The notes beneath the pieces are model-generated. The model saw only the letters and a list, made by a program, of their open reading frames with translations, was not told the origin of the DNA and made no database searches. From Rhodopirellula sp. (GTDB taxonomy: Bacteria > Planctomycetota > Planctomycetia > Pirellulales > Pirellulaceae), in NCBI GenBank assembly GCA_002701385.1, contig NZVD01000003.1, forward strand, positions 1-47,893: a stretch of 47,893 nucleotides of DNA, written 5' to 3'. This document shows, one piece after another, positions 43,624 through 47,893 of this stretch (its first letter is position 1; the number at the start of each line of letters is the position of its first letter). Both the position numbers and the translations under genes were made by a program.

Positions 43624-45132
43624 TTACCCATCAACCTTTCCCCAGTCCTTACGTTGTCTTGAACTAGGGATTCCCATTTTCTTTCTGTATTTGGTGACCG
43701 TACGACGAGCAACTGAGAAGCCCGCTGCCTTGAGACGGCGCACCAATTCATCATCACTGTGTGGCTTTGCTTTATCTTCTTGATCGATGATTTCCTGTAG
43801 CTTGGCACGAATACTATCCCAAGCCACATCTTCACCATCTTCTGCTGTGATGCCACCTACGAAGAAGCCTCGCAGAGGAAAGATACCTCGTGGAGTTTGA
43901 ATCCACTTGTCATCAACAGCTCGGCTTACGGTCGTCACATGGACTCCGACTTGGTCAGCAATTTGTTGCATCTTTAATGGAATAATTGCCTCCAAACCAT
44001 CCTCAATAACGCGGAATTGATGATCGACAATCGCCTGTGAAACTTTTAGAAGCGTCGCCTGGCGTTGCTGGATAGCTTCAATCAACCACTGAGCACCATT
44101 GAGTTTTCTCCTCAAAAACTCTTTCTCATCCTTATTAGCATCAGTCGCTTTTAGGCGACGGCGGTAATAAGCACTAATGCCCAACTGTGGTATATCCCGC
44201 TCTTCCACGGTAACAATATACGCTCCGTGCTCATCCTGGTGCACGAACAGGTCGGGCACAACCGTTGCGATAGGCTTCTCCACGAAGCTGGAGGCTGGCT
44301 TGGGATTGAGATGCCGCAGTTCCTCCCAGATCAACTGAATATCCTCAATGCTCATGCCCGTTTGCTTTTGAATCAACGGTAAGCGGTTGTGTTCAAGATC
44401 TTCCAGATGATTGGTAATCAACATATGAAGTTCCCGATAGAAGGGATGATCCTGAGAAAGTTGAATGAGAAGACATTCTTCAAGACTCCGAGCAGCAATC
44501 CCTGGCGGATCGAGGCGTTGGACGAGATTTAAAGCCTCCTGAGCAATCGCCAGCTGATGCTCATCGGTATCATTACGAATCAGACTTTCAAGTGGAAGCT
44601 TTAAATAACCTCCTCCTTCTGCATCCAGCGATGACGCGATTCGCTCGGCCATAGCAAACACATCCGGAGACAATTCCAATTCTCTCAATTGCATCACCAG
44701 ATGGTCGTACAGCGTAATTCCTCGCTGCGAAATATTCGCCATCGTGTCGTGGTAGCGATCCGAGAATTCCTGGACTCGATTTACGCTGAGCCGAGGCTGT
44801 TCATCAAAGTAATCGGGGATTTCGTTATCCAGTTCGTCGAGACGTTCAAAGTCGTCTGCATTGTTGGACTCTTCATCCACCACCAACTCTGATTCCACGT
44901 CATCATTCGCGGCAGCTTCCTCGGCCTCGGCCGCCTGCACAGCCTCAGCCCCTTCTAACTCTTCCTGTTCCTGCTCAAGTTCTTCCAAGACAGGGTTTTC
45001 AGTCATTTCCTGATCAATGCGTTCCTGCAATTCCAGCACCGGCAACTGAAGAATCTCCATGGACTGGATCATCCGCGGAGCAAGCTTCTGTATTTGCTTT
45101 TGAGTCGTAAATTGGCCGAGCGAAAAACGCAT
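43624..45132 (-). CDS. rpoN: RNA polymerase sigma-54 factor
   Basis: The alternative sigma factor that recognises -24/-12 promoters and requires AAA+ activators. Region I is Gln/Leu-rich (LGQFTTQKQIQKLAPRMIQSMEILQLP). An acidic region II (about 48-110) and the core-binding region follow (LDPPGIAARSLEECLLIQL). The HTH reads VGVHVTTVSRAVDDKWIQTPRGIFPLRGFF. The RpoN box ARRTVTKYRK starts at residue 475, followed by GIPSSRQRK. The 502-residue length is normal. It starts 40 bp after recR and probably belongs to the dnaX-ybaB-recR transcript, an unusual location for rpoN. Confidence 0.97.
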   Translation of the reverse strand: MRFSLGQFTTQKQIQKLAPRMIQSMEILQLPVLELQERIDQEMTENPVLEELEQEQEELEGAEAVQAAEAEEAAANDDVESELVVDEESNNADDFERLDELDNEIPDYFDEQPRLSVNRVQEFSDRYHDTMANISQRGITLYDHLVMQLRELELSPDVFAMAERIASSLDAEGGGYLKLPLESLIRNDTDEHQLAIAQEALNLVQRLDPPGIAARSLEECLLIQLSQDHPFYRELHMLITNHLEDLEHNRLPLIQKQTGMSIEDIQLIWEELRHLNPKPASSFVEKPIATVVPDLFVHQDEHGAYIVTVEERDIPQLGISAYYRRRLKATDANKDEKEFLRRKLNGAQWLIEAIQQRQATLLKVSQAIVDHQFRVIEDGLEAIIPLKMQQIADQVGVHVTTVSRAVDDKWIQTPRGIFPLRGFFVGGITAEDGEDVAWDSIRAKLQEIIDQEDKAKPHSDDELVRRLKAAGFSVARRTVTKYRKKMGIPSSRQRKDWGKVDG

Positions 45133-45172
45133 TGTATGGACTGGAAGATACTTACATCACGAACGGTCAGAT

Positions 45173-45772
45173 TCAATATTTCTGTCGACCAGCAATGGCA
45201 TCTGCCAAAATCTCCTTATTTGTAAATTCGAGTATACTGCCGGTGGTAATTCCTCGAGCCAATCGAGTGATGGTTACATCATAGTTACCGAGCAAGTTTG
45301 AGATATGAAGTGCTGTCCCGTCTCCTTCGACGGTGGGATTAGTAGCCATAATCACCTCTTTAATTCCTCCTGCTCTGACACGGTCAATCAAGGCGTCAAT
45401 GGTCAGCTGCTCAGGCCCGATACCTTCCAATGGCGCAATGCGCCCCAACAAAACGTGGTATAACCCGCGAAAGACACCGGACTGTTCCAATGACATCAAA
45501 TCTCGCGGTTGCTCGACAATACAAAGAGTCGATTGGTCTCGGCGAGTGTCCTCACAAATTGCACAGATTTCGCTTTCTGCCAGATTGAAACAGACGCTAC
45601 AGTATCTGACATTTTCACGTACGTTTCGAATTGCATCGGCAAACGCCAAGGCTTCCGACTTATTGACACGCAATAAGTGGTAAGCGAGACGCTCTGCACT
45701 TTTACGACCGATCCCTGGTAATTTCGCAAGCTGTGCGATGAGTTCGGTTACCGATTCAGATAATTGTGCCAC
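45173..45772 (-). CDS. recR: Recombination mediator RecR
   Basis: It works with RecO (and RecF) to load RecA at gaps. The N-terminal helix-hairpin-helix (LAKLPGIGRKSAERLAYHLL) is followed by a Cys4 zinc finger (C58, C61, C70, C73) and a Toprim domain (LCIVEQPRDL, IMATNPTVEGDGTA). The C-terminus carries the family block ITRLARGITTGSILEF. The start is GTG, with AGGA nine bases upstream overlapping the ybaB stop. The 199-residue length is typical. Confidence 0.97.
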   Translation of the reverse strand: MAQLSESVTELIAQLAKLPGIGRKSAERLAYHLLRVNKSEALAFADAIRNVRENVRYCSVCFNLAESEICAICEDTRRDQSTLCIVEQPRDLMSLEQSGVFRGLYHVLLGRIAPLEGIGPEQLTIDALIDRVRAGGIKEVIMATNPTVEGDGTALHISNLLGNYDVTITRLARGITTGSILEFTNKEILADAIAGRQKY

Positions 45773-45783
45773 AGTGATAATTC

Positions 45784-46146
45784 CTAATCTGGCTGCTTAC
45801 CGAACTGCTCGAGCGCTTGTTCCAACCCCGGAATATTCATCCCAGCGGCCATTTCCTGGGTCACTCGCGCATGGACTTCCTTGGTTTTTTCCCGAGTAGT
45901 GTTGACCGCAGCTCGGACGAGATCTTCCATGAGCTCACCGTCCTGTTTCTCAAATAATTCCGGGGCGATCGACACCTGCAGGACTTCACCCAGCCCGTTC
46001 ATTTCCACAGACACCAAGCCAGCTCCGGACTCTCCCTTCACTCGCTCTGCTGAAAGCTTTTGATTCACTTCATCAAGTTTGCCGCCCATTTGCTGAGCCT
46101 GCTTCATCATGGAAGCGAGGTTTCCCAGGGACTTAAACATCTTCAT
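45784..46146 (-). CDS. ybaB: YbaB/EbfC family nucleoid-associated protein
   Basis: A 120-residue DNA-binding dimer. The family pattern is clear: MMKQAQQMGGKLDEVNQKL, then GLVSVEMNGLGEVLQVSIAPEL and LMEDLVRAAVNTTREKTKEV. The position between dnaX and recR is conserved in many bacteria. ATG codons at 46146 and 46140 are both possible; AGG lies nine bases before the second. The gap to recR is 11 bp. Confidence 0.95.
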   Translation of the reverse strand: MKMFKSLGNLASMMKQAQQMGGKLDEVNQKLSAERVKGESGAGLVSVEMNGLGEVLQVSIAPELFEKQDGELMEDLVRAAVNTTREKTKEVHARVTQEMAAGMNIPGLEQALEQFGKQPD

Positions 46147-46245
46147 ACACCTTTCGCGTTGGGAGTGATTTCTCCCGGATTATTCCAACAAAACGCATGC
46201 CACCGTTGGTAGGACAACGTAGTCCTCGCCGGTTTAATATGAGCA

Positions 46246-47893
46246 TTATTGGCGGCGTCGTGGTTGGTCTACACGAACCACTTCGGCTCCAAAAGTCTCC
46301 GCGACCTGTTGCACCATTGGATGCTGCTCTGCTTCCCGTCTTCTTTGGCGAGTGGTCTTTACACCACTGTCCTGAACAACCGGTTGAGGCTGAGAAGATT
46401 GCGGAAGCAATTCAAAAGTCACTCGAAAACGATTTCCTGTAGTCTTAAAGAGCTCGTCTTCTAATTTATTGCGACGTTCCGGACGTTCGCAGGCGTCTTT
46501 TTGAAAAGTATAGTGCGAAGGAAATTTCACGACCAGATGATTTGGCACGGAAATTGCTACCGATTCGGCAGATTGTAGAGTACTGGCCGTTAAATCGTCA
46601 AGATTTTGACAAACCCTTTCCCAGACCGACAGGACATTCTGATTGGTCACGTTGAGTTTATTCGCTGGTGCATCCACTGCTGCCGAGGTGCTTTGCGAGT
46701 CTGAATCTTTCATCGATTCATCTGGCGTCGGTGGGGACATGGGCGTATCAACCCCTGACGGTGACGTCGGGTACGGGTCAGAAGTTGAATTTGGAGTTGG
46801 GACTGGAGGGCGAGTGGATTGGGTAGTTTGAACGTCAGGCGTTAGTTCAGTCTCAGCGTTGTGACTTGGTACCTGCAAACCTACTCCATCTACCATGTCG
46901 CTCGTCGGCGTCGCGTTTGGACGCACAGGCGTTTCGGCTGAGCGGTCATCGACGACATCTGCTGTAGTTTGTTCCGGAGCATCAACTACCGACGCTAGCG
47001 CTGTCGACGGTTCACCTTTTTTTTTAACGCCACCAGGAGTCTGAGCTACAACACCGCCTGGAGCGATTACCAAACCACTCTTGGCAAAGTCCTTCATTTC
47101 CGGACTCTGCAACACGTTCAGCCATTGTTCGATACGATCAAGCTCTTCTAAGCTTGCAATACGTACCACAGCGGTTTCCACCAGAATTCTGACCTTCGTC
47201 GTCTGCCGCACCCGTCTCAGCATTTCCTGAAAGATTTCTAGCGAGGCCAGTAGTGTATGTTTGCCGATTCTGTTGGCGAGTGATTGAACACGATCAAATT
47301 CATTGCGCTGCGTGTATTGCATCAATTGGGCCCCACACCCAACGCTGGCGGATAATAAATCCCGATAAACGCCCAGCAATTGTTCAGCCAATCTTTCGGG
47401 TTCAGCCCCGAGCATCCAAAATTCACTCAGGATTTCTAGCGATTGACCGGCATCCCGCGCACAAAGAGCCTCGGATAAATCCAACAATTTCCCGCTATCT
47501 GATGTGCCAAGCAATAGATGAACGTCGTCCACCGTGACCTGCCCATCGCTGAAGGAAAGCAATTGTTCTAGCAAGGACTGGCTATCACGCAATGAACCGT
47601 AAGCCCGACGCGCAAGCATCCAAATCGCATCGTCGTCGGCAGTCCGATCTTCCTGTTCCAGAATAAATTTCAGCCGGTTAAAGATCTTCTCGTCTTCGAC
47701 TGGTGAAAGATCAAAACGCTGACACCTAGATAGTACGGTGATCGGCAATTTATCCGGGTCTGTAGTGCAGAACATGAACTTCACATGTTCCGGTGGTTCT
47801 TCGAGCGTCTTCAGTAATGCGTTAAAGGCGGGTTTCGTAAGCATGTGGACTTCATCGACGATGTACACTTTAAATCGACTACGGGAAGGTCGA
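46246..47893 (-). CDS. dnaX: DNA polymerase III subunits gamma and tau, N-terminus cut by window edge
   Basis: The clamp-loader ATPase. The visible part begins just before Walker B (KVYIVDEVHMLTKPAFNALLKTLEEPPEHVKF) and includes sensor 1 (FCTTDPDKLPITVLSRCQRFDL) and the domain III helices. A Pro/Thr/Ser/Asp-rich linker and a C-terminal tau-specific region follow. Walker A and the zinc-binding cysteines lie beyond position 47893; the frame is open to the edge. An A9 run on the coding strand (47025 to 47017) sits at the start of the linker, about 280 codons into the visible part. A shift of one base there gives AGG then TGA, so a short gamma form of roughly 400 residues is predicted. ybaB follows 99 bp downstream. 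Confidence 0.95.
   Translation of the reverse strand, partial: RPSRSRFKVYIVDEVHMLTKPAFNALLKTLEEPPEHVKFMFCTTDPDKLPITVLSRCQRFDLSPVEDEKIFNRLKFILEQEDRTADDDAIWMLARRAYGSLRDSQSLLEQLLSFSDGQVTVDDVHLLLGTSDSGKLLDLSEALCARDAGQSLEILSEFWMLGAEPERLAEQLLGVYRDLLSASVGCGAQLMQYTQRNEFDRVQSLANRIGKHTLLASLEIFQEMLRRVRQTTKVRILVETAVVRIASLEELDRIEQWLNVLQSPEMKDFAKSGLVIAPGGVVAQTPGGVKKKGEPSTALASVVDAPEQTTADVVDDRSAETPVRPNATPTSDMVDGVGLQVPSHNAETELTPDVQTTQSTRPPVPTPNSTSDPYPTSPSGVDTPMSPPTPDESMKDSDSQSTSAAVDAPANKLNVTNQNVLSVWERVCQNLDDLTASTLQSAESVAISVPNHLVVKFPSHYTFQKDACERPERRNKLEDELFKTTGNRFRVTFELLPQSSQPQPVVQDSGVKTTRQRRREAEQHPMVQQVAETFGAEVVRVDQPRRRQ
47017..47025 (-). promoter_or_regulatory. A9 slippery run in dnaX, predicted frameshift or transcript-slippage site
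   Basis: On the coding strand the codons are GTT AAA AAA AAA GGT GAA. Reading one base back after the run gives AGG TGA, an immediate stop. Adding one A during transcription gives the same outcome. Losing one A leads to TAG seven codons after AAG. E. coli dnaX uses ribosomal -1 slippage and Thermus dnaX uses transcriptional slippage at A9 to make gamma. Whether this site acts by either route is an inference. Confidence 0.6.

Follow-up and report, generated by a model that had tools for sequence, protein, structure and literature searches.

Does the run of nine A's in the dnaX gene of a Rhodopirellula species serve to produce a short, gamma-like clamp-loader subunit beside full-length tau, and would RNA polymerase or the ribosome be responsible for the change of reading frame? 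E. coli dnaX makes short gamma from the same gene, and a short gamma has been proposed for the dnaX gene studied here. The window is the whole stretch of DNA analysed (contig NZVD01000003.1, 47,893 nucleotides), and because it comprises the whole contig and the contig edge cuts the gene, the 5' end of dnaX is missing. NCBIfam gamma/tau models identify the gene with a best E of 3.5e-83; this lies under that model's cut-off, as expected for a gene fragment. The features relevant to the question are as follows.

46246-47892, minus strand: dnaX fragment (DNA polymerase III gamma/tau), 548 codons, the 0 frame encoding tau
47137-47538, minus strand: DnaX domain III (PF12169), residues 119-252, retained in the proposed gamma form
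47017-47025, minus strand: A9 run, the proposed slip site, codons AAA AAA AAA (T9 on the plus strand)
47012-47014, minus strand: TGA of the −1 frame, in AGG TGA directly after the run
46995-46997, minus strand: TAG of the +1 frame (one A fewer), after six codons
46270-46473, minus strand: tau C-terminal region (PF12362), residues 474-541, missing from the proposed gamma form

The coding strand reads GTT AAA AAA AAA GGT GAA CCG around the run, which occupies residues 290-292 of the 548-residue fragment, and the in-phase A9 followed by GGT GAA reported in the initial annotation is thus present. Its statements on the two other frames also agree with the sequence, as AGG TGA is read at once after insertion of one A or a −1 shift by the ribosome, and one missing A gives GTG AAC CGT CGA CAG CGC TAG past the run, with the stop falling inside the eight codons that had been claimed. 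The tau frame is open through the run, and dnaX in the window is a single ORF in which no frame transition is required. The run had further been placed at the boundary between core and linker. This agrees with the Pfam matches, as ATPase, lid and domain III all lie N-terminal of the run and domain III ends at residue 252, while the match to PF12362 is weak (E 0.00013, 22.7 bits versus a Pfam cut-off of 30.2). In the nearest full-length relative (locus L104), 88-89% identical to the window protein, tau would have 683 residues and gamma about 424 if the ATG at position 1177 of L104 is the start, a guess based on the conserved N-terminus. The gene belongs to a one-strand order of dnaX, ybaB/ebfC, recR and rpoN (window 43624-47892), in which the sigma-54 gene comes right after dnaX-ybaB-recR.

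Conservation of the A run among relatives

The initial annotation had suggested checking the run among relatives at the nucleotide level. For this comparison, dnaX loci were sampled from 239 phylum members, among them the window's own genome, with 238 handled by script and one (G074) read by eye. The loci come from 109 of the 142 same-family genomes searched, 49 of 53 same-order genomes (no proper dnaX match was obtained in the other four), 32 of 61 same-class genomes and 40 of 113 genomes elsewhere in the phylum. Four genomes (G056, G066, G147 and G037) were excluded for a contig edge at or before the slip site, and the ambiguous G137, excluded in an earlier count, was scored as run-less in the final one. 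At least nine A's are present in the dnaX linker of 168 of the 194 scored class genomes; G074 had no core match in the script but carries A9 by direct reading, and its inclusion would give 169/195. By rank, the run is found in the window's own genome (1/1) and in 8/8 genomes of the genus, 93/104 of the family, 41/49 of the order and 25/32 of the class, while 6 of the 40 phylum members examined outside the class have it. AAG codons in place of AAA, named beforehand as the contrary outcome, are not what most relatives carry, and A9-A10 is retained in all codon phases. Identity of the sequences flanking this conserved run is near chance: over all pairs of the 168 run-bearing genomes, the 30 bases after the run are 28.3% identical versus 26.5% when shuffled, and the 14 bases before it 30.4% versus 28.9%, in an ungapped comparison that is anchored on the run and scores one-base shifts as difference.

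The run is A9 in 80 of the 168 genes, A10 in 86 and A11 in 2, the lower limit of 9 being partly a product of the scoring threshold; class genomes whose longest run in that region is 7-8 are only G356 (A8), G314 and G335 (both A7). Phase 0 is used by 15 runs (A9 in 11, A10 in 4), phase 1 by 92 (A9 in 33, A10 in 58, A11 in 1) and phase 2 by 61 (A9 in 36, A10 in 24, A11 in 1). Three loci, L062 (G033), L164 (G355) and L202 (G343), have two adjoining runs of at least nine A's at the slip site, with one C or TTG between them. Multiple dnaX-like matches were seen in G149 (contigs C8, C12 and C15), G298 (C432 and C478) and G310 (C21 and C30); the three G149 matches score nearly identically, reflecting either duplication or an assembly effect.

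The 26 scored class genomes without the run are clustered, with absence in 4/4 genomes of genus g18, 4/4 of family f83 and 2/2 examined of the three in family f91. Gamma production by an A-run route would therefore be dispensable or replaced in these clades. In the first set of genomes 23 lack the run, and few of these have any other slip site, the alternatives seen being the A8 of G356, the A7 followed by C7 of G335 and the C7 of G040. These C7 runs lie near position 893 of L195 (G335) and near position 875 of L067 (G040), where a −1 stop follows one codon on or at once (immediately in G040), and they are perhaps replacement slip sites. A core tree (FastTree, 213 rows), weakly supported in places and not separating gain from loss of the run, implies that within the class the run changed 17 times in presence, 36 times in length and 25 times in phase.

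Stops in the alternative frames and reversed genes

The tau frame is continuous in 165 of the 168 run-bearing class genomes. In these single-ORF genes, stops lie close to the run, at a median of 3 codons for the −1 frame and 4 for the +1 frame; a stop is met within five codons in 126/165 genes for the −1 frame and 116/165 for the +1 frame, and both frames are closed within 10 codons in 134/165. Controls were taken from the same dnaX linkers for a subset of 147 genes, where both stops occur within 10 codons in 117/147 compared with 8.2% of 8,727 control codons, and in a gene-wise permutation (2,000 draws) the maximum was 23 genes with both stops as against the 117 observed. Apparent selection on stops in both frames fits realignment in either direction.

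The arrangement is reversed in the three other genes. These are G003, G120 and G054, where it is the short form that the templated frame encodes, closing one or two codons past the run, whereas the tau reading continues in another frame, −1 for G003 and G120 and +1 for G054. With the templated stop placed just after the run, tau in these genomes would need realignment. Their examined congeners are not reversed (two for G054, four for G120 and, with the window's own genome among them, eight for G003). Mixed shift direction among orthologs has been used as a criterion for transcriptional over ribosomal events (Antonov et al., PMC3711429). Because the reversed genes come from draft assemblies, in which one missing or extra A might be an assembly error, the three cases are only suggestive of transcriptional realignment. 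Outside the class, locus L226 (G261) carries an A10 in the dnaX linker; the templated frame closes three codons later while the −1 frame stays open for 218 codons, representing another two-ORF dnaX.

Probable polymerase slippage and the competing readings

Our reading, to which we give a probability of roughly 0.77, is that the dnaX A9 functions as a programmed transcriptional-realignment site giving both tau and gamma. RNA polymerase would slip on the nine template T's and produce dnaX mRNAs in which the number of A's varies (8, 9, 10 or more). Full-length tau would be translated from messages in which the run has 9 (or 9+3n) A's, while in the others either alternative frame would soon meet a stop, a few codons on, yielding a gamma-like protein that lacks the C-terminal region and keeps ATPase, lid and domain III. 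High-efficiency RNA polymerase slippage on nine A's or T's in vivo has been reported (PMC5009743). The interpretation of the run as a gamma-forming site, put forward in the initial annotation, is strongly favoured and is backed by placement and conservation; the ribosomal −1 shift that it had named as one possible route is not favoured. Slippage by the RNA polymerase of this organism, the production and stability of gamma, and the gamma:tau ratio are what we infer from the DNA.

Among the alternatives, programmed −1 ribosomal frameshifting at A_AAA_AAA, yielding gamma as in E. coli dnaX, survives best, although we consider it improbable. It would reach AGG TGA directly in the window gene, its heptamer can be accommodated by the run whatever the phase, G003 and G120 among the reversed genes require a −1 change, and the phase-2 A7 of G335 has a −1 stop five codons on. 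However, an A_AAA_AAA site needs at least 9, 8 and 7 A's in phases 0, 1 and 2, respectively. Under a ribosomal shift phase-2 runs should therefore often be shorter, but run length is independent of this phase-specific minimum and only G335 fits. Moreover, a −1 shift alone would not select +1 stops, which are nearly as close as the −1 stops in the counts within five codons given above, and G054 requires a +1 change. In E. coli, A_AAA_AAA is also reported to shift far less readily than A_AAA_AAG (PMC5009743).

Ribosomal signals were then considered. The E. coli-type A_AAA_AAG is absent from the window run, where the in-frame heptamers are T_AAA_AAA and A_AAA_AAA. A downstream CGAC/GTCG pairing had been offered as a weak candidate stimulator. 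The letters are there, but three downstream stretches of the window fold no better than shuffles (z of +0.45, +0.98 and +1.41), and in the relatives the downstream z averages −0.35, compared with −0.22 in control stretches located 120 bases further along, with 13% versus 11% below −1.5 and no clear enrichment, so the hairpin was rejected. Neither GGAG, AGGA, GAGG nor GGGG occurs within 2-16 bases upstream of the window run, and a Shine-Dalgarno-like motif is found in 10.7% of run-bearing relatives versus 9.3% of controls, again without clear enrichment. The window's genome encodes tRNA-Lys of both anticodons, UUU and CUU, in a survey that scored 150 of 233 first-look candidates and read the anticodon in 30 of 38 matches; the presence of the second, CUU, counts against the −1 shift. 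Polymerase slippage is preferred to the −1 ribosomal shift on these sequence grounds, because no stimulator and no A_AAA_AAG were found, run length does not follow phase, and tRNA-Lys(CUU) is present.

It is very unlikely that the run merely encodes a lysine-rich linker, for example for DNA contact, with the nucleotide run incidental. Lysine-rich residues are found there in all phases, as this explanation would have it, but the three phases give different residues (KKKG, QKKT, EKKN, AKKN), and synonymous-codon shuffling within each gene leaves at least nine A's in an expected 21.1 of the 150 run-bearing genes tested. In other parts of these genes AAG is the commoner lysine codon (1174 AAG versus 962 AAA), and a peptide function would exert no selection for close stops in frames that it does not use. 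Since all three phases are used, the residues differ and shuffling loses the run in most genes, selection is judged to act on the nucleotide run rather than on the peptide.

Rarity of A9 was dropped as an argument because it is too weak and other genes also carry A9. Outside contig C51, the window's genome has 14 runs of at least nine A's, that of dnaX included, and seven besides dnaX lie in sense within stop-to-stop ORFs that are 100 codons or longer, including one on the AT-rich contig C27. It is conservation, not rarity, that exceeds chance, given the 168/194 class genomes that keep the dnaX run as against the shuffled expectation. In a small control set of two genes, the A9 of a DUF1592-type gene is absent in 6/6 genus orthologs (61-97% identical, one partial) and that of a MerR gene is kept in 1/2 genus relatives. 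Slippage at the other sense A9 genes of this genome would be noise. Contigs C51 (L258) and C27 (L251) are themselves unusual, the stretches read having about 25% G+C versus 48% in the window; C51 has ten A/T runs of at least nine and carries genes for an EF-Tu-like/APS-kinase fusion and an ABC transporter, and both contigs are probably foreign contigs in the bin.

To a phase-variable homopolymer switch of dnaX at the DNA level we give slightly less weight than to the lysine-rich linker. Run lengths do differ among relatives and three genomes have an out-of-frame length, but the tau frame is kept in all the other run-bearing class genomes. dnaX is an essential gene, and close stops in both frames together with the narrow range of 9-10 fit RNA realignment better than the switching of such a gene. 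Sliding of the ribosome, rather than slippage of the polymerase, has equally poor prospects: E. coli ribosomes do slide on consecutive AAA codons, but in the cell-free system this required A11 with little product at A9 or A10 (Koutmou et al., PMC4363877), and 166 of the 168 class runs are A9 or A10, short of that threshold.

A wider version of the slippage reading can be offered tentatively, as a possibility we hold to be rather less than even. The dnaX run would be held at 9-10 because it must be long enough for polymerase slippage, as set by the length of the RNA-DNA hybrid, and short enough to avoid ribosome sliding, and most of the class would use slippage in replisome assembly. The frame encoding tau would then be nearly free to drift, because message populations would always contain all frames.

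Known dnaX systems and biological meaning

Transcriptional slippage at an A9 has been measured in Thermus thermophilus dnaX (PMC1088944, PMC5009743). That gene and the window dnaX are alike in having a sense A9, a single-ORF tau and close stops in both other frames, and both organisms have two lysine tRNAs, a property that may bear on polymerase slippage in Thermus (Atkins et al., PMC5009743). By contrast, the window organism belongs to a different phylum, slippage is measured in Thermus and predicted here, and the planctomycete site spans most of a class, where every phase is represented and genes of single-ORF and of split-ORF layout both occur. The window gene shares with E. coli dnaX the immediate UGA in the −1 frame, but lacks A_AAA_AAG, an upstream Shine-Dalgarno-like motif and a supported stem-loop, and its relatives have conserved +1 stops as well. 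The initial description of the site as combining the A9 of Thermus with the immediate UGA of E. coli is accurate for the run and the AGG TGA, whereas the shift signals of the E. coli type were not supported.

Transcriptional realignment was also proposed by Antonov et al. (2013), who reported poly-A runs of 7-10 in 12 of 17 two-ORF dnaX genes, three of the two-ORF genes being from Chloroherpeton and Chlorobium, with A10 genes displayed in a supplementary figure (PMC3711429). Their two-ORF layout is shared by G003, G054 and G120 within the class and by G261 outside it, whereas the window dnaX is a single ORF. Judged by title and start of abstract among the matches listed, the literature searched yielded no report of dnaX slippage in planctomycetes. 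The only match to combine dnaX, Planctomycetes and slippage was PMC3711429, in the available text of which Planctomycetes stand just in a row of a genome-count table, and its gene set may include a planctomycete. The kind of gene is known, and the window dnaX adds a new lineage to it. Measured dnaX slippage, in the literature found, is that of Thermus, and conservation independent of frame across most of a class is unreported as far as titles and abstract openings of that literature tell.

If true, a phase-independent A9-A10 across most of the class would mean a stable, inherited route to two clamp-loader subunits. It would provide well over a hundred natural variants, differing in phase, length, split or single ORF and absence from certain clades, with which the requirements of slippage and the importance of gamma could be probed. 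For annotators it carries a caution, as a split dnaX in these genomes need not be a pseudogene or a sequencing error.
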